Positions 8 through 8,055 of a DNA stretch of 8,055 nt are shown in pieces. The position numbers and the translations under genes are program-made. The notes under the pieces were generated by a model. The model worked only from the letters and a program-made list of their open reading frames with translations. It searched no databases and was not told the DNA's origin. The DNA is taken from the NCBI GenBank assembly GCA_017646885.1, contig JAGCLR010000019.1, positions 1 through 8,055 on the forward strand, read 5' to 3'. The first letter of the stretch is position 1. Each line of letters starts with the position of its first letter. This DNA is from Methanobrevibacter sp. Its GTDB lineage: Archaea; Methanobacteriota; Methanobacteria; Methanobacteriales; Methanobacteriaceae.

Positions 8-2632
8 ATGAATAAACAAATTAAAAATATAATAAATATGAGCAACGTATTATCATATGCACAATTAATGAGTGGACAAAACTCATTAGAGGCAATTAAA
101 GAGGGTGCAAGACTTATTTGTGATCGTCGTGGTCGTTATGCGGACACAATCTCAAATGATGTTGAAAGAATTAAAGGTGAGATTTCTGTGATTAAAGGTC
201 TCATCAAATCTATTGAAGACAATAGTTCTGTGCTCGATGATAAACACAAGTCGGATTTACTTGAACTTTGTGAAAAGTTGAAGCTTAGCCTTAAAGGATA
301 TTTACGAAAGTCGGAAAATCTACGCGATAGGTTTAAGAACAAAAAAATCAAGGTTTTAGCGTTCGGTCTAAAATCTGAAGGCAAGAGTACATTCACTCGT
401 CGTTATACAGGTCTACCAGAAAGTGTAGTTGCTGTGAAGGGAGCTGGTGTTGATCAAGACAAAACAGGTGCATTAAGTGTTATATATCATGATAAAAATT
501 ACACAAAAGAAAATCCGAAGATTATAGTTCATTTTAAAACACAAGAAGAGATTTTGGCAGTAGTGAACTTCTGTGTTAGAAAATTGCGCGTATTACCGAA
601 TTTTAAGTTACCTAATTGTACAGATTCAGGTTATTCAACATGGAATGATCTTGCGTTAGTTCTAGATAACATTACAAAAAAAAGGGAAGCATATCAAACC
701 TTGTCTTTACTAACTGACGGAAATAAAGTTGTCGATTTTGCCGCGCTCAAGTCATTTCTTAAAAGTGTATTTGAAAAAGAATCAAACTTTAATGATGTGA
801 GAAAAGACTCTCATTCCTTACCTGTAAAGATATCTGAATTGCCATTGTATAATGATATGACAAATGACGTGGAAAGAAGGTATCTTTCTGTGGATCGTAT
901 TGAGATATATGCCAATTTGGGATATGAAGGGATATTTGAAAACTTTGAAATATGTGACACTAAAGGAATAAGTGCCAAGGCTGGTGGTGCTATGATTGTT
1001 GAGCAAGGTTTATATAATGATATCAACAATAGTGATGCTGTTTTTTCAATAAAAAGAGTTGGTCAGGGTGCACAATCAAAAGAATTTTATAGCAATTTAA
1101 GTAATAATATAATAAATTGTGATGAAGGTGTCAAGCCCGAGAGACTGGACAATAAACACTTTGCTATATTCAATTTGTTGGAACTTGCAGATAAAGATAC
1201 CATTGATGATACCATTAACACTATTGATGAACTTAATCTGGCAAAATGTATTTATATTGGCTCATTGGGAGACAATATATCATACGAAGACATAATTATT
1301 GATGCTGATATATTCGCAAGGGCGGTTATTGTTGATATGCTAAGCAAGATTGTCGACTCAACAAAAGAGAGTGACGATTTGTTAATTGCTGATTGCAATA
1401 AACTTATTAAAGAAATAAGTGAAAATCAGCACTTGCTAAATGACTACTTGGTGCAGATTCAGAGTAATGTTAGTGACTTTAATGAAGAGGCAATTATACT
1501 TGAGAAGATAGCAGAACTTCGTAACGCGGCAATTCTTAAATTAGAGCAAGAGGCTAAGGTACATGATATTCCATTACAATGTGTTGTTTGTGGAATAGAT
1601 GATGATGTCGTCATGAATAATAGCGGTGACTCCAAAGATGATTATTTTGATGATGAAGATGATGACTTAATTGATACTGGCAGTTCATCTAAATCAGATG
1701 GACCTGCATATCAGGAGCATTTGACCAGAAAATTGGTCATGGATGACCCAAAACGTGATATCCGAACCTTTGAGATGATAACTGCTGAGTCAGATGAAAC
1801 TGTAATAGTCGACGTGTTGAGGAACCGCAAGAAATCTGACTCCGTGAGTGATTTGGCATTAGAGTATCTCCTGGATAAAGAGATTAAGGCTATAGCTGGT
1901 TCAAATGTGTACATGAATTCAGTAAAAGTTGACGGCTCGGTTAACTCATTGGGAGGATACATTGATAGCGTAAGCGCCCTGTTGTTTCGCAAAATAGAGG
2001 ATAATATCAATACAACACACTCTCTACCTTGTAATATAGATAGCATAGTGGAATTAAGGACTAAGGTATATCGAGTGGTATGGGATGCACTGAAACTGAC
2101 AGGTTTACTCGGTGAGTTGTCTGAAGAGGTGTTGGAGAGACATAAATATAACTATGTTATGGATAAGTGGTACCGATGGTATACATCGTCCATTAAGGAT
2201 CAGTATAGCTCTATTATTGTTCCACAGCAGTCATATAATATTTTGATTGCATATTTCAATGGATTAAAGCATGACCCGGATTCTAATCTGAAGAGTGGCT
2301 CTGTCGTAGATTGGAATCGTCTAAAGCGTGCCGTGCAATATGCGTATAAGATATATGACTTTGAGGGTCGAATATTGGAAAAGATTGCAAATGAAGAATT
2401 GCTCCGCCATAACATTTTTAGAGCTCTGCATACTTCATTGAAAAACCCTGCTTTCGATATTGATATGAAAGGTATTTACCTGGGAAGAAGTGCAGACGAA
2501 CTCTATAAGATCGGCATTATAGGTAAAGCAGAGCACGACAGGATCACAAATCAGTATAAATGGGATATTCTTCGTAATGCAAGAGAGCAGTTGAAGACCA
2601 AGAGTGTAACATCCTTACAAAATATTCAATAG
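8..2632 (+). CDS. Dynamin-like large GTPase (P-loop NTPase), first gene of the operon
   Basis: Predicted cytoplasmic 874-aa P-loop GTPase of dynamin-like type. Residues about 20-112 are charged and helical, with coiled-coil character. The G domain follows: Walker A/G1 GLKSEGKS at 120-127, a candidate switch I Thr in DKTG (151-154), and switch II/G3 DTKG at 317-320 after a hydrophobic strand (FEIC). The G4 position looks degenerate, with FNLLE (388-392) where (N/T)KxD is expected. YIGSL (416-420) could be the G5 strand. About 160 residues separate G2 from G3, far more than in a minimal GTPase. Residues 440-515 are helical; an Asp/Glu tract lies at 544-553; the rest is mostly helical with no obvious transmembrane segment. 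A stop (TAA 5-7) lies directly upstream in frame, so ATG 8 is the first possible start; Met11 (ATG 38) is a plausible alternative. The stop is 5 nt before the next gene. The pairing with an Hsp70-like gene recalls SrfC/SrfB, but family membership is inferred. NTPase call firm; dynamin-type moderately sure. Confidence 0.82.
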   Translation: MNKQIKNIINMSNVLSYAQLMSGQNSLEAIKEGARLICDRRGRYADTISNDVERIKGEISVIKGLIKSIEDNSSVLDDKHKSDLLELCEKLKLSLKGYLRKSENLRDRFKNKKIKVLAFGLKSEGKSTFTRRYTGLPESVVAVKGAGVDQDKTGALSVIYHDKNYTKENPKIIVHFKTQEEILAVVNFCVRKLRVLPNFKLPNCTDSGYSTWNDLALVLDNITKKREAYQTLSLLTDGNKVVDFAALKSFLKSVFEKESNFNDVRKDSHSLPVKISELPLYNDMTNDVERRYLSVDRIEIYANLGYEGIFENFEICDTKGISAKAGGAMIVEQGLYNDINNSDAVFSIKRVGQGAQSKEFYSNLSNNIINCDEGVKPERLDNKHFAIFNLLELADKDTIDDTINTIDELNLAKCIYIGSLGDNISYEDIIIDADIFARAVIVDMLSKIVDSTKESDDLLIADCNKLIKEISENQHLLNDYLVQIQSNVSDFNEEAIILEKIAELRNAAILKLEQEAKVHDIPLQCVVCGIDDDVVMNNSGDSKDDYFDDEDDDLIDTGSSSKSDGPAYQEHLTRKLVMDDPKRDIRTFEMITAESDETVIVDVLRNRKKSDSVSDLALEYLLDKEIKAIAGSNVYMNSVKVDGSVNSLGGYIDSVSALLFRKIEDNINTTHSLPCNIDSIVELRTKVYRVVWDALKLTGLLGELSEEVLERHKYNYVMDKWYRWYTSSIKDQYSSIIVPQQSYNILIAYFNGLKHDPDSNLKSGSVVDWNRLKRAVQYAYKIYDFEGRILEKIANEELLRHNIFRALHTSLKNPAFDIDMKGIYLGRSADELYKIGIIGKAEHDRITNQYKWDILRNAREQLKTKSVTSLQNIQ

Positions 2633-2637
2633 CTTAT

Positions 2638-4260
2638 ATGAATACATTTGAACTTCAATATGGACAGGTTAATAATGTATTGATGTCTTTCAATACATCA
2701 AACTTACCTGTCGGTCTTTTTAGCAGTTTTAAACGTGAAAAGTTAGAAGTTTATTCATCTAACAGGTTCATTAATAACGCCCTTGATGTCAATCTTCACG
2801 AAAAAACAATAATCGTGAAGATTGATTGGGGGAAATATATAATGAAACAAGAACGTGAGGTTTTTATATTGAATGTAAAATATAATAACAGGGCTGTTGA
2901 CTCGCTAGCTTTTAAGTTTCAAGTTAACTTTAAGAAGAAAAATGCTTCTACCAAACTTTCTATTTCGCAGACACAAGTCTTGTGGAATAAAGATATGTAT
3001 GTTGACTTGATTATTGAACCGACACATTCACAATCTGAAAAGTGGAAATTCTTATCGGGTACTAAAGTCGTAAAATTTCCATTAGGTTCAAAATTCAAGC
3101 CAGTTGATGGTGAAAATGAAGTGCACTTCAATGTATTAGAAAAACAGAAAATCACATTGAAATATGAGCACTCTCTGCCAATCATGCCTCCTATTACGAA
3201 GGATCTGAGTGAGAAAATTATTGTTATGATTGGCTCAGAGTCATCTTCTTTTGATGTCACATTAGTGCCGAATAATAGTCCAAGTTATAGAATTAATGTA
3301 ATCAGACTTACTCCATCCTACACAATTGGATGTAATGAACTTGATTTATGGAAATTACAAATTATAGATGAAAATCCATACGCATTTCTGTCTATTAATG
3401 ATGTCATTACAGATTCTGACAAGTTAAAGATAAAAGCCCTGAATGAGCACGAATGGTTGATTTCACTTAAGTCTGTAAAAATGTTCAAAAAATTACCCTC
3501 ATCAAGCATACTTGCTAATGTTGAGGTACAAGCATCTAGAACATCAAGTAAAAAAATAGGACTTATATTATCAACTATTCCTAACGATGATGTCCATTAC
3601 ATAAACATTAAGGAGGAAAATTGCTTACAATTTAACGTTCAAAACGAAGCAAGGTCCCCCTTTGTTGTTTATCGAGATAATTCATCCCAACAGATTCTAC
3701 TTAATCTAAAGAATTTATCTCATACAGTAGTTGAGGATATTATTATATCATCAAGTAATGATAATGTTCAGATTGCAGAAAGTAGCAGACACATTAAAAC
3801 TCTTAAGCCAAATCATAGTATTCCTGTTTCTGTAAAATTAAACTCAAATCTTTCAGTTGGTTTAGTACGTGCTACCATACAGGCTGTTGGCGATTATACT
3901 AAAAAGTGTTCATATGATTTGCATTATGAAATAAAAGAGAAGAAACACTGCACTCTAAATGTTGAGATAGTTAAAAATTCTTTTGTTGAAACCTTTGCTG
4001 GAGAAGAGTATACAAATCACAAAGTTTGCGAAATAATGTTGACTGCGTGTATGGATGAGAATTATGGAACTGTAGGTTCACTTCCAATAGTAGTAAGCGA
4101 CATTAAAGCTTCGCAGTTATTCAGCATTAGAACGAATATAGCACAAATCGAGCCTGGTAAGACTCTAAAATGTGATTTGGTACTAAATGGTACTATTGGC
4201 CACGGTGAAGAGGTAAACGATTTCAATAAACTTATTGCTTTTAAATATGAACACAAGTAA
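2638..4260 (+). CDS. Multi-module beta-sandwich (Ig-like) protein, putative adaptor of the GTPase/Hsp70-like pair
   Basis: A 540-aa protein that I do not recognise as a named family. Its sequence alternates hydrophobic and polar residues throughout and reads as about four to five consecutive Ig-like beta modules (roughly residues 1-100, 100-215, 215-315, 325-440 and 440-540). The fourth resembles CARDB/NEW-type domains (ILLNLKNLS followed by LKPNHSIPVSVKLNS), a common layout in cell-surface proteins. There is, however, no signal peptide, lipobox or membrane segment at the N-terminus, so a cytoplasmic location is expected. Residues 62-67 read IDWGKY, matching IDWGKW in the N-terminal half of the downstream Hsp70-like protein, with similar flanking strand patterns. 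The ATG sits 5 nt after the GTPase stop, and the 3' end overlaps the next gene by 14 nt, implying co-translation. It carries no catalytic motif. A scaffold or adaptor role is inferred from fold and position; the gene itself is secure. Confidence 0.75.
   Translation: MNTFELQYGQVNNVLMSFNTSNLPVGLFSSFKREKLEVYSSNRFINNALDVNLHEKTIIVKIDWGKYIMKQEREVFILNVKYNNRAVDSLAFKFQVNFKKKNASTKLSISQTQVLWNKDMYVDLIIEPTHSQSEKWKFLSGTKVVKFPLGSKFKPVDGENEVHFNVLEKQKITLKYEHSLPIMPPITKDLSEKIIVMIGSESSSFDVTLVPNNSPSYRINVIRLTPSYTIGCNELDLWKLQIIDENPYAFLSINDVITDSDKLKIKALNEHEWLISLKSVKMFKKLPSSSILANVEVQASRTSSKKIGLILSTIPNDDVHYINIKEENCLQFNVQNEARSPFVVYRDNSSQQILLNLKNLSHTVVEDIIISSSNDNVQIAESSRHIKTLKPNHSIPVSVKLNSNLSVGLVRATIQAVGDYTKKCSYDLHYEIKEKKHCTLNVEIVKNSFVETFAGEEYTNHKVCEIMLTACMDENYGTVGSLPIVVSDIKASQLFSIRTNIAQIEPGKTLKCDLVLNGTIGHGEEVNDFNKLIAFKYEHK
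4247..4260 (+). promoter_or_regulatory. 14-nt gene overlap, probable translational coupling
   Basis: The Hsp70-like gene's ATG (4247-4249) lies inside the 3' end of the beta-sandwich gene, whose TAA is at 4258-4260, in a different frame. No purine-rich ribosome-binding site is visible in the 20 nt upstream, so re-initiation by ribosomes finishing the upstream gene is the simplest explanation. This would keep the two products in a fixed ratio, in keeping with a complex. The overlap is read directly; the coupling is inferred. Confidence 0.5.
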
Positions 4261-6982
4261 GAATAAAATAGAAATTCCAATTACAGTAAAAAAACATGAA
4301 GGATATACTGTAAAATACCGTGCAAGGTTAGCTGATAAAATTACTTTTCCGATCTCGAATTCAGATGAGAGTCGTTTTGTGAGTATAGGAGGTTTAGAAA
4401 TCTATGATTATGACCATTCAGCAAGGTTTATAAAAGAAGGACAGCGAATTAAGATTGAAGCGCCCTTTTGTTTTAATGCTCAGTTAGACAATACTGAAAT
4501 AGAATTGAATTCTGATTCCTTCAATGCATTGGAAGATTCTCCAAAAACATCCAATGCAAAAATAATTTTAGTGTACCTATGCGTAGATAGTATAGATGAA
4601 TTGAAGGATAAACTAAATTTGGAAGAGGAGTATAGATTTACATTTAAATGGGAAGAAAATTCTACATCTCCAAATTCTAATGAACAACGAGAAGCAAAAG
4701 AGCAAACAATTAAACCTTATATTGCTCGTGCTTTACCCAAGATTGCGTTTCAGCCATTAGAGAATTGTTTTGCAATTGAAGGAATAAATTCTTATAACGT
4801 TATTTATTCACCAGAAGATACTGATGGATATAGATTCTGTTTGGGAAATATTGTTGTGAGAAATTTGCAAAAGATTCCGTACAAACACACTGATGGACAA
4901 TGGGAGCGGGTTGCATACCCCAAATTAAAGGTATTTCTCACTTACAAATCAGAAAACGGCGACCCTAGCTATGCAGGATATATTTATGTTAATGACTCAT
5001 TCGCTAAGAAAGTGTCAGTTGAGATTCCCAATGGAGAAGATGATATTTCTTTCAAATTGTATATAGATTGGGGTAAATGGAGAGATGGTGGTAAACCGAC
5101 ATCGCTACTTTTAAGAATATCTACTGATAAATGGGAAGAACCTTTATACGAGTGTAGTTTTAAGATGACGCCTACGTTCTATGACGACGTATATGCACTT
5201 GATTTAGGTACTACGGGTATTGTTGTTGCTAAAGAAAAAGAAGGAAAACAAGAGATAATAATTCTTGAAGATGTCAAGACAAATCAAATTGAACAAGAAC
5301 CAGAGATTATATCATCTCTCACAATGTTAACCGTAGAAAATGGTGATGGAAATAGTAAAATGGTATTATCTCCATCAGCAAATGAATATTATGGTACAAT
5401 CAATAACAAAAAAAGATTCCGTTTAGTCCCATCCAAATTCATCATTGGACAAGAACGTATTCCATATTTAAAAGAATTTTATTTAAGTAATGAGATCAAC
5501 AAAAAAGTAGATTTATTTGACTTAGACAACTCTGAAATTGATTTAGTTGATACAAATACTGAAGATGAAAATCTAAAGACAATATCTACTATTGTTGGAG
5601 CATTATATAAAAGTATTTTTAAGCGTTTTTCAAAAGAAACAAAGCAAATAAAGAAACTTGTTATTACATATCCAAATACATATACTATTGAAAATTTAGA
5701 TAGTATTAAGTCTGTTTTACAAGACGAACTAAATCTAAATTTAAATGGTCAAGTTGCTTTTGTTCCAGAATCAGATGCTGTTGCAGCTTACTATTTTAAT
5801 CAAAAGATTATGAATGATGGAGGTTTTTTTGATGAAAATGGTAACATAAAGAAGGTATCAAATGTAGTGATATATGATATGGGGGCAGGTACTTTAGATC
5901 TAAGTCTTATAGAATTCAAACAATCTGCAGATAACTCTATAACTGCCTCTATCGTTAATAAAATAGGTATACCTTTAGCAGGTAATTATCTTGACTATAT
6001 TATATACAATACGTTGCAATTAAAGAATAAAACAAAAAATCTAGAAGGAAAGGATAACACAATAAAAGATATTACTAAAGGAATTAAGTGTAGTTATAAA
6101 GATTCAACGGAACCTATTAAAACATCTCAACCCACTTGGTACGTAGAGAATCAGGGAAATCTTGAATTAGAAGACAACGAATCTTACCAAACTTTATTTA
6201 AAGACTCACTTAATGATTTTCTTGAATGTTGTAGTAAAACAGTTCTTGAACTACTAATACCAGAAAATACAAAAGTTGATACCATTGTATTTTCTGGTCG
6301 AGCGAGTAAGTTCTCTGTACTACGCGACAAGGTTAAGGAATCTTTAAGGATTAATAACTCAATGGTTAAAGAAGAGGATTTACTTCCTGTTGCAAATTGT
6401 GGAGATCATTTGAAGACTTGTGTTGCTATTGGTGCATTAAAATACCAAAGTTTTTTTAACAATAACGATTTGTTTAAAATAGAAAATAAAAATCTATATT
6501 CGAAAATTGCTGTTGTATATTGGGGAAGAAAAGATGGTAAATGGTGCACTTGCGTAGAATTTCTAATTGATCCTCATAGTGAAAATGAAAGAAGCAAAAA
6601 AGGTGAGTTTATTAATGGTACTTGGTGTAAAGAATATTCTAACAATATTGAAATAAAGAACTTCTTACCCAACAAACATTTATATTATATCCAAACAAAT
6701 TTGGATCAAAAACGCATTGAGGAATTATTTACAAAGGTTTATCAAGATGATTGTTTAAATGAAGATGACTTAAATTGGGCATTTGTTAACGTGTTGTTCA
6801 AGTATCGAATCACGGAGAATAAACCTTTTATGGTTAGTTTAAGAATATCAAAAGACAATAAAATAATAGACAGAAGAATAGGAAATAAATGGCTTTTAAA
6901 TACAAAACTAATGGAAAATATAGAAGACAATATACTATACAGAAGAAGTATGTGGCCATTTATTACAAAATTAAAAGATTAA
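4247..6982 (+). CDS. Hsp70/actin-fold ATPase with large N-terminal beta-rich region
   Basis: A 911-aa protein counted from ATG 4247. Residues 1-135 and 155-316 are beta-rich, separated by a polar Ser/Asn/Glu linker (about 136-155); the second part carries IDWGKW (273-278), shared with the preceding gene. The Hsp70-type nucleotide-binding core starts at phosphate-1 motif LDLGTTG (318-324), where Hsp70s have DLGTT. It continues with PESDAVAAYY (507-516), equivalent to the Hsp70 EPxAAA segment, phosphate-2 DMGAGTLDLS (544-553), and an adenosine-binding strand FSGRASKFSVL (682-692), where Hsp70s usually have GG. CVAIGALKYQ follows and closes the core. The last ~180 residues do not look like the canonical substrate-binding domain or lid, so this is not DnaK. 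ATP binding and hydrolysis are expected. SrfB-type Hsp70-like proteins are the nearest analogy I know. A TTG at 4235 would add four residues, but ATG 4247 is preferred. The stop lies 4 nt before the next ATG. Confidence 0.86.
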   Translation: MNTSKNKIEIPITVKKHEGYTVKYRARLADKITFPISNSDESRFVSIGGLEIYDYDHSARFIKEGQRIKIEAPFCFNAQLDNTEIELNSDSFNALEDSPKTSNAKIILVYLCVDSIDELKDKLNLEEEYRFTFKWEENSTSPNSNEQREAKEQTIKPYIARALPKIAFQPLENCFAIEGINSYNVIYSPEDTDGYRFCLGNIVVRNLQKIPYKHTDGQWERVAYPKLKVFLTYKSENGDPSYAGYIYVNDSFAKKVSVEIPNGEDDISFKLYIDWGKWRDGGKPTSLLLRISTDKWEEPLYECSFKMTPTFYDDVYALDLGTTGIVVAKEKEGKQEIIILEDVKTNQIEQEPEIISSLTMLTVENGDGNSKMVLSPSANEYYGTINNKKRFRLVPSKFIIGQERIPYLKEFYLSNEINKKVDLFDLDNSEIDLVDTNTEDENLKTISTIVGALYKSIFKRFSKETKQIKKLVITYPNTYTIENLDSIKSVLQDELNLNLNGQVAFVPESDAVAAYYFNQKIMNDGGFFDENGNIKKVSNVVIYDMGAGTLDLSLIEFKQSADNSITASIVNKIGIPLAGNYLDYIIYNTLQLKNKTKNLEGKDNTIKDITKGIKCSYKDSTEPIKTSQPTWYVENQGNLELEDNESYQTLFKDSLNDFLECCSKTVLELLIPENTKVDTIVFSGRASKFSVLRDKVKESLRINNSMVKEEDLLPVANCGDHLKTCVAIGALKYQSFFNNNDLFKIENKNLYSKIAVVYWGRKDGKWCTCVEFLIDPHSENERSKKGEFINGTWCKEYSNNIEIKNFLPNKHLYYIQTNLDQKRIEELFTKVYQDDCLNEDDLNWAFVNVLFKYRITENKPFMVSLRISKDNKIIDRRIGNKWLLNTKLMENIEDNILYRRSMWPFITKLKD

Positions 6983-6986
6983 TCAT

Positions 6987-7868
6987 ATGAATATTAATAT
7001 TAATATTTCAGATTCATCAGAATCTCAGACAATACATTTGTTAACTCAAGTCATTGAGTGCTTACAAATTGAAAAGACAAATGTTGTAAAGGAATATGAA
7101 GGTTTGAAGGACGAAAAAGCGAAGTCAGATGTCAAGCTTGAAGAACTGAACAAAGAATATGAAGGTTTGAAGGACGAAAAGGCGAAGTCAGATGTCAAGC
7201 TTGAAGAACTGAACAAGGAATATGAAGGTTTGAAGGACGAAAAGGCGAAGTCAGATGTCAAGCTTGAAGAATTGAACAAGGAATATGAAGGTTTGAAGGA
7301 CGAAAAAGCGAAGTCAGATGTCAAGCTTGAAGAATTGGAAGAGCTATATAAACAAGAAAAAACAAATGTTTTTATAGAGTCTATTAAACAGGTCTCTTTA
7401 GTATTGAGGTTTTCATTACAAACAAATCTTGATACAAAATGGCATGATTATATCAAACATTTAGCTGATGATATAGACAATTTTATACAAGAAGTTAAAA
7501 CGTTTGAAGACATTAAATTAAAAATTGTATCTAAAAATGGTTGGCTTTCAAAAGTAGTTTCCATCAAATGGTGGAGTGTGGCTAGCAGTGTAAAAGACCT
7601 ATTACCGATAATGTTTCAAAACGATTCTGTTTTTGATCGCTCATTTTATAATTTGCAAAATATAATGAAAGAGTTGGGTTTGGATATTAAAATTCCAACT
7701 TGTGATTTCTCTGATAAAATAGAAAATTACACTGCAGATTATGATGGAGATACGATAGTAAAGACATTGTTCCCTCAATACTCTACAGAACAATTTGTAT
7801 TATGTGAAATCAATTTTATTTCCTATAATGGTCATACTGGTAAATGCATTGGATATACTGTAAATTGA
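6987..7868 (+). CDS. Coiled-coil protein with 21-residue repeats and C-terminal beta domain, possible GrpE-like partner
   Basis: A 293-aa protein, not recognised as a named family. After a short polar N-terminus (MNININIS), residues 35-118 form four 21-residue repeats with hydrophobic or core positions spaced 3-4-3-4 (repeat positions 3, 6, 10, 13, 17, 20). Each repeat is thus exactly three heptads of coiled coil. Residues 119-228 are mainly helical and include a Trp-rich stretch GWLSKVVSIKWWS (185-197) that is amphipathic rather than membrane-spanning. The last 64 residues (about 230-293) look like a small beta domain, with strands around LGLDIKIP, FVLCEINFIS and GKCIGYTVN. The order coiled coil, helices, terminal beta domain is that of GrpE, the exchange factor of Hsp70, and the gene starts 4 nt after an Hsp70-like gene. 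The GrpE analogy is an inference from architecture and context; no diagnostic motif proves it. Alternatively it may be an oligomerising tether or sensor. Confidence 0.72.
   Translation: MNININISDSSESQTIHLLTQVIECLQIEKTNVVKEYEGLKDEKAKSDVKLEELNKEYEGLKDEKAKSDVKLEELNKEYEGLKDEKAKSDVKLEELNKEYEGLKDEKAKSDVKLEELEELYKQEKTNVFIESIKQVSLVLRFSLQTNLDTKWHDYIKHLADDIDNFIQEVKTFEDIKLKIVSKNGWLSKVVSIKWWSVASSVKDLLPIMFQNDSVFDRSFYNLQNIMKELGLDIKIPTCDFSDKIENYTADYDGDTIVKTLFPQYSTEQFVLCEINFISYNGHTGKCIGYTVN
7089..7340 (+). repeat. Four tandem 63-bp coding repeats
   Basis: Copies lie at 7089-7151, 7152-7214, 7215-7277 and 7278-7340. They differ only at synonymous AAA/AAG or CTG/TTG positions, plus the final codon of copy 4 (GAA for AAC). 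Each encodes 21 residues beginning (K)EYEGLKDEKAKSD and ending VKLEEL(N). Because 63 bp is 21 codons or three heptads, gaining or losing copies lengthens or shortens the coiled coil without changing frame or helical register. The near identity points to recent duplication by slippage or recombination, or to gene conversion. Confidence 0.97.
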
Positions 7869-7915: not shown

Positions 7916-8055
7916 ATGGCTTGGAATGATTTAACAGATAGGCAAAAGCAGCTTGATAGATTGATTGATAATTGTGGTGTTCAGCTTGATGCTACTAATG
8001 GTTGTGTAGAGAAAGTTGCTCGTGCAATTGGGGCAACAAGTCGTGAACTTGGCTA
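7916..8055 (+). CDS. 5' part of an unrecognised gene, cut by the window end
   Basis: An open frame from ATG 7916 runs 46 codons to the window edge without a stop, beginning MAWNDLTDRQKQLDRLIDN. The codons are gene-like, and the start is preceded by an A/T-rich stretch like the other starts here. The N-terminal segment looks helical and charged; the segment CVEKVARAIGATSRELG (residues 30-46) could be part of a helix-turn-helix or another small helical domain. No function can be assigned from this fragment. It lies 47 nt after the coiled-coil gene on the same strand, so it may be a distal operon member or the start of a new transcription unit. Confidence 0.6.
   Translation, partial: MAWNDLTDRQKQLDRLIDNCGVQLDATNGCVEKVARAIGATSRELG

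Follow-up and report, generated by a model that had tools for sequence, protein, structure and literature searches.

What does a cell do with a dynamin-like GTPase and an Hsp70-like ATPase that are encoded side by side? The question is raised by the 8055-base stretch of contig JAGCLR010000019.1 analyzed here (the window), in which four plus-strand open reading frames (ORFs) occupy positions 8-7868. A first-pass annotation had described four same-strand genes spaced by +5, -14 and +4 nt, encoding a P-loop GTPase, a multi-module beta protein, an Hsp70-core ATPase and a repeat coiled coil, and had read them as a machine of two nucleoside triphosphatases (NTPases) distinct from the SrfB/SrfC pair. 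The ORF coordinates bear out this layout, with gaps of 5, -14 (using the ATG start of gene 3) and 4 nt. Relatives of genes 1, 3 and 4 are present in the protein set and gene 2 matches relatives of gene 3, so we take all four to be real genes rather than chance frames. The strongest hint of a conflict role, absent from that earlier reading, is the shuffling of domains between lineages, and the mosaicism of the copies suggests an unrecognized immune-type machine. Our best joint explanation, held tentatively and with somewhat less than even confidence, is that the four genes specify a single cytoplasmic two-NTPase machine and that this machine is a conflict (defense-type) system. We infer the conflict role from the shuffling, the sporadic presence of the system and the company kept by its distant cousins.

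Domain exchange in the GTPase and the Hsp70-like protein

Judged from the aligned sequences, domains have been swapped between lineages in both the GTPase and the Hsp70-like protein. The GTPase of relative P0005 is 65% identical to that of the window in the head (residues 10-432) and 95% identical in the stalk (residues 433-874); its head is 92% like that of P0021, whose stalk is just 43% like the window's. For P0007, the head is 85% and the stalk 43% identical to the window's, and this stalk is 85% and 88% like those of P0008 and P0012, respectively. The gene 3 protein of the window is 91% identical to P0039 in residues 1-315 and 41-43% identical beyond them, and its core is 67% like that of the fused relative P0046, whose N-terminal part is only 19% like the window's. 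The exchange points differ, because identity to P0039 drops at residue 315 and identity to P0040-P0042 at residue 195 (83-90% up to that point, 51-52% in 196-315 and 41-43% beyond). The N-terminal modules are the most divergent part of the Hsp70-like protein in addition to being exchanged.

Trees of the GTPase and Hsp70 parts disagree. Constraining a group from one part's tree on the other part was rejected for the GTPase head (p 0.0003 and 4e-78), the GTPase stalk (p 5e-7 and 0.029), the Hsp70 N-terminal part (p 4e-35) and the Hsp70 core (p 0.0007); these are quick trees, and the groups were chosen, with both trees already known, from the tree of the other part. Additionally, 86 of 276 GTPase pairs show a gap of over 25 points between the head and residues 521-874, in a set that contains the window protein twice. 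Because rate differences can explain part of this count, the claim of mosaicism is carried by the tree tests.

The encoded proteins and their relatives

By its modeled fold, gene 1 is a bacterial dynamin-like protein. In structural comparison, neck helices from the N- and C-terminal sides flank the GTPase head and are joined by a helical stalk; the best structural matches are bacterial dynamin-like proteins. The P-loop GTPase described earlier is borne out by the invariant positions of GLKSEGKS (Table 1) in an alignment of 36 rows, two of which are the window's own protein. T153, assigned to G2 in this analysis, is also invariant (36/36), as is N389, which marks the G4 position inferred from the alignment and is followed by L, I or V where the base-specificity motif (T/N)KxD has K. 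Because Pfam Dynamin_N (PF00350) does not match gene 1 at E <= 1, we call the protein dynamin-fold and do not file it in that family. Head, neck and helical stalk are common to gene 1 and the bacterial dynamin-like proteins SynDLP, DynA and BDLP, whereas the missing Dynamin_N match, the odd G4 and the operon with an Hsp70-type partner set it apart. SynDLP is soluble (PMC10104851), and gene 1 likewise lacks a transmembrane-like stretch. By hydropathy, none stands out in any of the four window proteins; the highest 19-residue mean is 1.34. Most bacterial dynamin genes stand in pairs within operons (PMC6104087), and the Bacillus subtilis dynamin DynA shields the population from phage (PMC8844932).

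Gene 2 had been read as a separate beta-module accessory protein. In BLASTP searches it matched the N-terminal part of 27 of the 58 gene 3 relatives (19-27% identity, E 9e-32 to 3e-4, some matches partial), and by this comparison at least 27 of the 58 carry as a single protein what genes 2 and 3 encode as two halves. The beta modules ahead of the Hsp70 core are confirmed by the gene 3 model; gene 2 is the split-off N-terminal part of the Hsp70-like protein and not an accessory in its own right. It has neither a Pfam match nor a PDB sequence match at E <= 1. What stands of the proposed two-NTPase machine is a dynamin-fold GTPase and an Hsp70-type ATPase in one operon; the beta protein as accessory falls away.

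The structural model of gene 3 (predicted local distance difference test score, pLDDT, 87.4; predicted template modeling score, pTM, 0.75) has strands in the N-terminal modules, and structure comparison upholds the Hsp70-core ATPase. The catalytic D, K, E, D and T positions of the two-lobed nucleotide-binding domain, which we take to correspond to residues of DnaK, are kept in 57 of 57 rows (the window and 56 of the 58 relatives). On this evidence gene 3 is a member of the Hsp70 superfamily with intact catalytic residues and a predicted ATPase. Pfam HSP70 (PF00012) gives it 16.2 bits, under the curated cut-off of 20.6 bits, and matches 22 of 24 gene 3 family members at E <= 0.1 (best 1.7e-9). 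VIA alignments to DnaK, Sse1 and BiP chains extend to gene 3 residues 884-896, with root-mean-square deviations of 5.7-9.1. Gene 3 thus shares with Hsp70 and Hsp110 the nucleotide-binding domain with its five catalytic positions and the beta region that follows, but it differs in its long N-terminal beta modules, its own SMWPF C-terminal motif and the helical lid, which is missing from the 911-residue model, so that the protein is not a canonical Hsp70 chaperone. Split forms of 895-912 residues (P0039-P0045, P0047, P0048, P0053 and P0060) share an ending of their own, RHSMWPNVK, whereas the window protein and many fused forms end in the SMWPFITKL type.

Gene 4 consists of a short N-terminus, repeats and a conserved C-terminal domain, and the repeat coiled coil noted earlier is indeed present (Table 1). 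Seven proteins, out of 92 candidates, match its C-terminal part. Among them, P0095 (272 aa) has one 21-aa unit fewer and is 100% identical to gene 4 over the searched C-terminal region, and P0096 has 251 aa, 42 residues under the 293-aa window protein. These lengths suggest that gene 4 varies rapidly through repeat number.

That the four genes form one unit, and encode one machine, rests on the operon, the fusion of genes 2 and 3 and a repeated gene order in a second contig. This contig, L001, comes from a metagenome-assembled genome (MAG) labeled Bacillota and carries, in order, a gene 1 relative (its C-terminal 203 residues alone, the contig being cut there), a fused gene 2/3 relative of 1482 aa and a gene 4 relative. 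The last of these occupies the equivalent operon position and is 34% identical to gene 4, with a different repeat unit and a homologous C-terminal domain. In L002, a distant fused gene 3 relative is followed by a repeat coiled coil with a cut C-terminal part; this MAG may be incomplete. We also counted exact coincidences in the length of each cluster's longest contig, a measure that does not read contig identity. There were five for GTPase and Hsp70 (36 x 58), one for GTPase and coiled coil (36 x 7) and one for Hsp70 and coiled coil (58 x 7); near misses would predict 0.06, 0 and 0.01, respectively. The co-occurrence in other genomes that the first-pass annotation had called for is therefore found in the gene order of L001 and, as circumstantial evidence, in these coincidences.

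Presence in the sampled groups is sporadic. In samples centered on the genomes of L001-L004, all from groups outside Bacteroidota, the probable home phylum, the Hsp70 alignment found just one genome, the center itself, both among 238 from the order to which L001's genome belongs and among 167 from the phylum of L003's. Of 392 genomes from L002's order it matched 51, with L002's own as the only strong full match, and around L004's genome it matched 2 of 201. The GTPase alignment matched 2 of 391 genomes, L001's and one distant; a match in 1 of 397 genomes was judged a non-member. The L001 and L002 bins are labeled Bacillota and Lachnospiraceae, and their sampled kin gave no strong match; recent transfer or mis-binning is possible.

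More distant cousins stand in other gene clusters. A 760-aa GTPase in L032 (E 3.7e-16, 58.6 bits; Dynamin_N match just under the cut-off) opens a cluster at 9558-17658 that continues with DO-GTPase2 (above the cut-off), two proteins without a Pfam match, a membrane vWA protein (just below the cut-off) and a Sel1-subtilase protein. It may represent a dynamin-containing variant of the DO-GTPase systems that has yet to be described. The L003 cluster (Fibrobacter, 5264-19998) contains an Hsp70-like protein with beta modules and a coiled-coil protein and, as judged by eye, a further Hsp70-like protein, a membrane protein and a large multi-pass membrane protein; none of the proteins in this cluster reaches a Pfam cut-off. 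L004 (Chthonomonas, 1655-21146) holds a weak vWA match and two overlapping, weakly kinase-like ORFs with an 84% identical stretch in common, along with two Hsp70-like proteins, one of them with a vWA-like N-terminus, a coiled coil and a large membrane protein.

Three described systems invite comparison. The srfABC operon pairs an Hsp70-like protein, SrfB, with a GTPase-like protein, SrfC. The Pfam profiles of SrfB and SrfC match none of the four window proteins at E <= 1, and none at E <= 0.1 in 22 GTPase members (among 25 of 30 families) or 24 Hsp70 members (among the families listed), in agreement with the earlier view that the operon is not SrfB/SrfC. Its likeness to srfABC lies in the pair of protein kinds, and its difference from that system (PMC6950479) in the missing profile match. 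Kaur et al. (2020) predict a conflict role for systems built around DO-GTPases, some of which also contain HSP70, vWA and fast-evolving FNIII proteins; in their account the variable parts reflect an arms race, and the GTPase and chaperone are predicted to set a threshold (PMC7159879). With their GTPase, HSP70 and rapidly evolving beta-repeat (FNIII) component, these diversifying systems resemble the window operon, which has the HSP70 component and a dynamin-fold GTPase instead of theirs. No Pfam profile for DO-GTPase, GAP1, FNIII, GrpE or DnaJ matches the four window proteins at E <= 1; the N-terminal modules of the Hsp70-like protein are diverging, yet they lack an FNIII match. In CoCoNuT type IV restriction systems, as here, Hsp70-like nucleotide- and substrate-binding domains, Ig-like sandwiches and coiled coils are tied to a GTPase, but this GTPase is McrB-like and the Hsp70 motifs are degenerate and Walker A-like, whereas the window has a dynamin fold and an intact Hsp70 site (PMC11090510). 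We ruled CoCoNuT out on that fold and because neither Pfam nor PADLOC gave a hit to McrB or McrC at E <= 1. By the tests made, the operon is not a member of SrfB/SrfC, DO-GTPase/GAP1 or CoCoNuT. If the conflict role is right, its workings would resemble those of the GTPase-HSP70 conflict systems, a dynamin standing in for their GTPase.

A possible conflict machine and its rivals

In the mechanism that we propose, the N-terminal modules (gene 2 and the first ~310 residues of gene 3) would be a sensor that binds an invader-derived or damage ligand. The Hsp70 would be the gate, its ATP-driven cycling preventing assembly of the dynamin below a threshold, with the coiled coil as a bridge or spacer. 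The dynamin would be the executor: once released, the GTPase would oligomerize, probably on the inner membrane, and the assembled form would stall infection, or kill or protect the cell. A more specific version, which we consider possible but doubtful, is a bacterial dynamin-based immune machine in which an Hsp70 with an interchangeable beta sensor stack licenses dynamin assembly; recombination near the head/stalk boundary of the dynamin and the sensor/core boundary of the Hsp70, together with repeat change in the coiled coil, would keep yielding new allele combinations. If true, it would be a shufflable innate-immune receptor made from a chaperone and a membrane-remodeling GTPase.

Several observations weigh against a conflict role or against parts of this mechanism. 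PADLOC gives just partial, generic Hsp70 (gene 3) and coiled-coil (gene 4) matches. Its PDC-M61B profile matches gene 3 (E 4e-8) only over positions 342-525 of 588, with no other PDC-M61 match, and reads as a generic Hsp70 match because it also matches in 5 of 14 control genomes; the gene 4 matches span 18 families (best JetC2, E 5.8e-5). Profile searches of the window proteins recognized neither a nuclease nor a pore nor any other effector, no defense genes are visible beside close relatives on their short contigs, and phage, plasmid and viral-contig collections yielded no confirmed relative. The GTPase alignment, which matched 1 of 5 genomes, found nothing anywhere in the genomes of L002, L003 and L004. 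The inferred G4 of gene 1 differs from NKxD and its GTP specificity is only predicted, and the Foldseek TM-scores behind its fold are low (0.12-0.26 by query; 33 matches at E <= 0.001). Mosaicism, finally, arises in surface, secretion or competition loci too.

The operon might instead serve housekeeping or niche-specific remodeling of membranes or cytoskeleton (division, vesicles, organelle-like structures), with the Hsp70-type protein assembling or disassembling dynamin polymers and no conflict role. We regard this as unlikely, if far from negligible: both domain exchange between lineages and a presence as sporadic as 1/238 and 1/167 (search centers only, in groups outside the probable home phylum) would be unusual for a core cell-biological machine. 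A system of inter-bacterial antagonism or surface variation, its variable parts shuffled for strain competition within a community, would account for the mosaic alleles and the variation in repeat number, and L001 and L002 carry RUG names, which we take to denote rumen genomes. The four proteins nonetheless look cytoplasmic, as no transmembrane-like stretch stands out by hydropathy, and no secretion gene lies within the window, which leaves this reading rather improbable.

Still less probable is a relative of srfABC acting in secretion, motility or toxicity, where the same pairing of NTPase kinds has to be set against the negative SrfB/SrfC searches in the window and its listed relatives. The mosaics could also be assembly chimeras and the system an ordinary conserved operon, given that the relatives come from large public collections (lgn, ena, jgi, ncbi), taken as mostly metagenome assemblies, and that P0005, P0007 and P0039 rest on one or two contigs each. 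Chimeric pieces, however, are expected near 100% identity, and those seen here lie 8% to more than 30% off their nearest relatives (P0005 head, window core). Exchanges run in both directions, and the gene 3 type of the window recurs as P0037 (92% identity, 24 member sequences). Two pieces are closer and say less, the stalk of P0005 at 95% identity to the window and the core of P0039 at 97% to P0040; overall we judge chimerism highly improbable.

Should the conflict reading be right, the ancient NTPase folds of dynamin and Hsp70 would be joined in one small diversifying system, with a modular route to new specificities through whole-domain swaps. It would also parallel the animal antiviral proteins Mx and GBP, which belong to the dynamin superfamily. 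Even without a defense role, a dedicated Hsp70-type partner would make bacterial dynamin regulation testable in a four-gene set.

Operon layout and margins

Table 1. Coordinates of the four genes and their features in the window.
Feature	Position	Strand	Basis or remark
Gene 1, dynamin-fold GTPase, 874 aa	8..2632	+	head ~10-432; helical stalk and neck 433-874
P-loop GLKSEGKS, gene 1 residues 120-127	365..388	+	G120, G125, K126, S127 invariant in 36/36 rows
G3 motif DTKG, gene 1 residues 317-320	956..967	+	invariant in 36/36 rows
Gene 2, multi-module protein, 540 aa	2638..4260	+	split-off N-terminal part of the Hsp70-like protein; BLASTP
Gene 3, Hsp70-type ATPase with N-terminal beta modules, 911 aa	4247..6982	+	model; Hsp110/DnaK match
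N-terminal beta modules of gene 3, ~residues 1-312	4247..5182	+	model strands; exchanged between lineages
Hsp70-type nucleotide-binding domain, residues 313-738	5183..6460	+	Hsp110/DnaK structural match
C-terminal beta region, ~743-896, placed like the Hsp70 substrate-binding beta domain	6473..6934	+	VIA alignments
C-terminal SMWPFI motif of gene 3	6947..6964	+	WP in last 25 residues of 48/58 relatives
Gene 4, coiled-coil protein, 293 aa	6987..7868	+	conserved C-terminal domain ~125-293
Tandem repeat, 63 bp (21 aa, three heptads), 3.9 copies	7089..7334	+	Tandem Repeats Finder, 97% matches

The gene 3 ORF can be read from a TTG (4235-6982, 915 aa), but the ATG at 4247 is the likelier start. No Shine-Dalgarno-like sequence was found upstream of genes 2, 3 and 4, and gene 1 has just 7 upstream bases, a pattern that may point to Bacteroidota; in L001, AGGAG is present ahead of the start of the gene 4 relative. 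G+C per kilobase of the window is 28-36%. Because the window begins only 7 nt upstream of gene 1 and stops only 187 nt downstream of gene 4, the operon may have members beyond its ends. A further ORF (MAWNDLTDRQKQLDRLIDNCG...) at 7916-8055 starts 47 nt past gene 4 and is cut by the window end; the region after the gene 4 relative in L001 looks unlike it.

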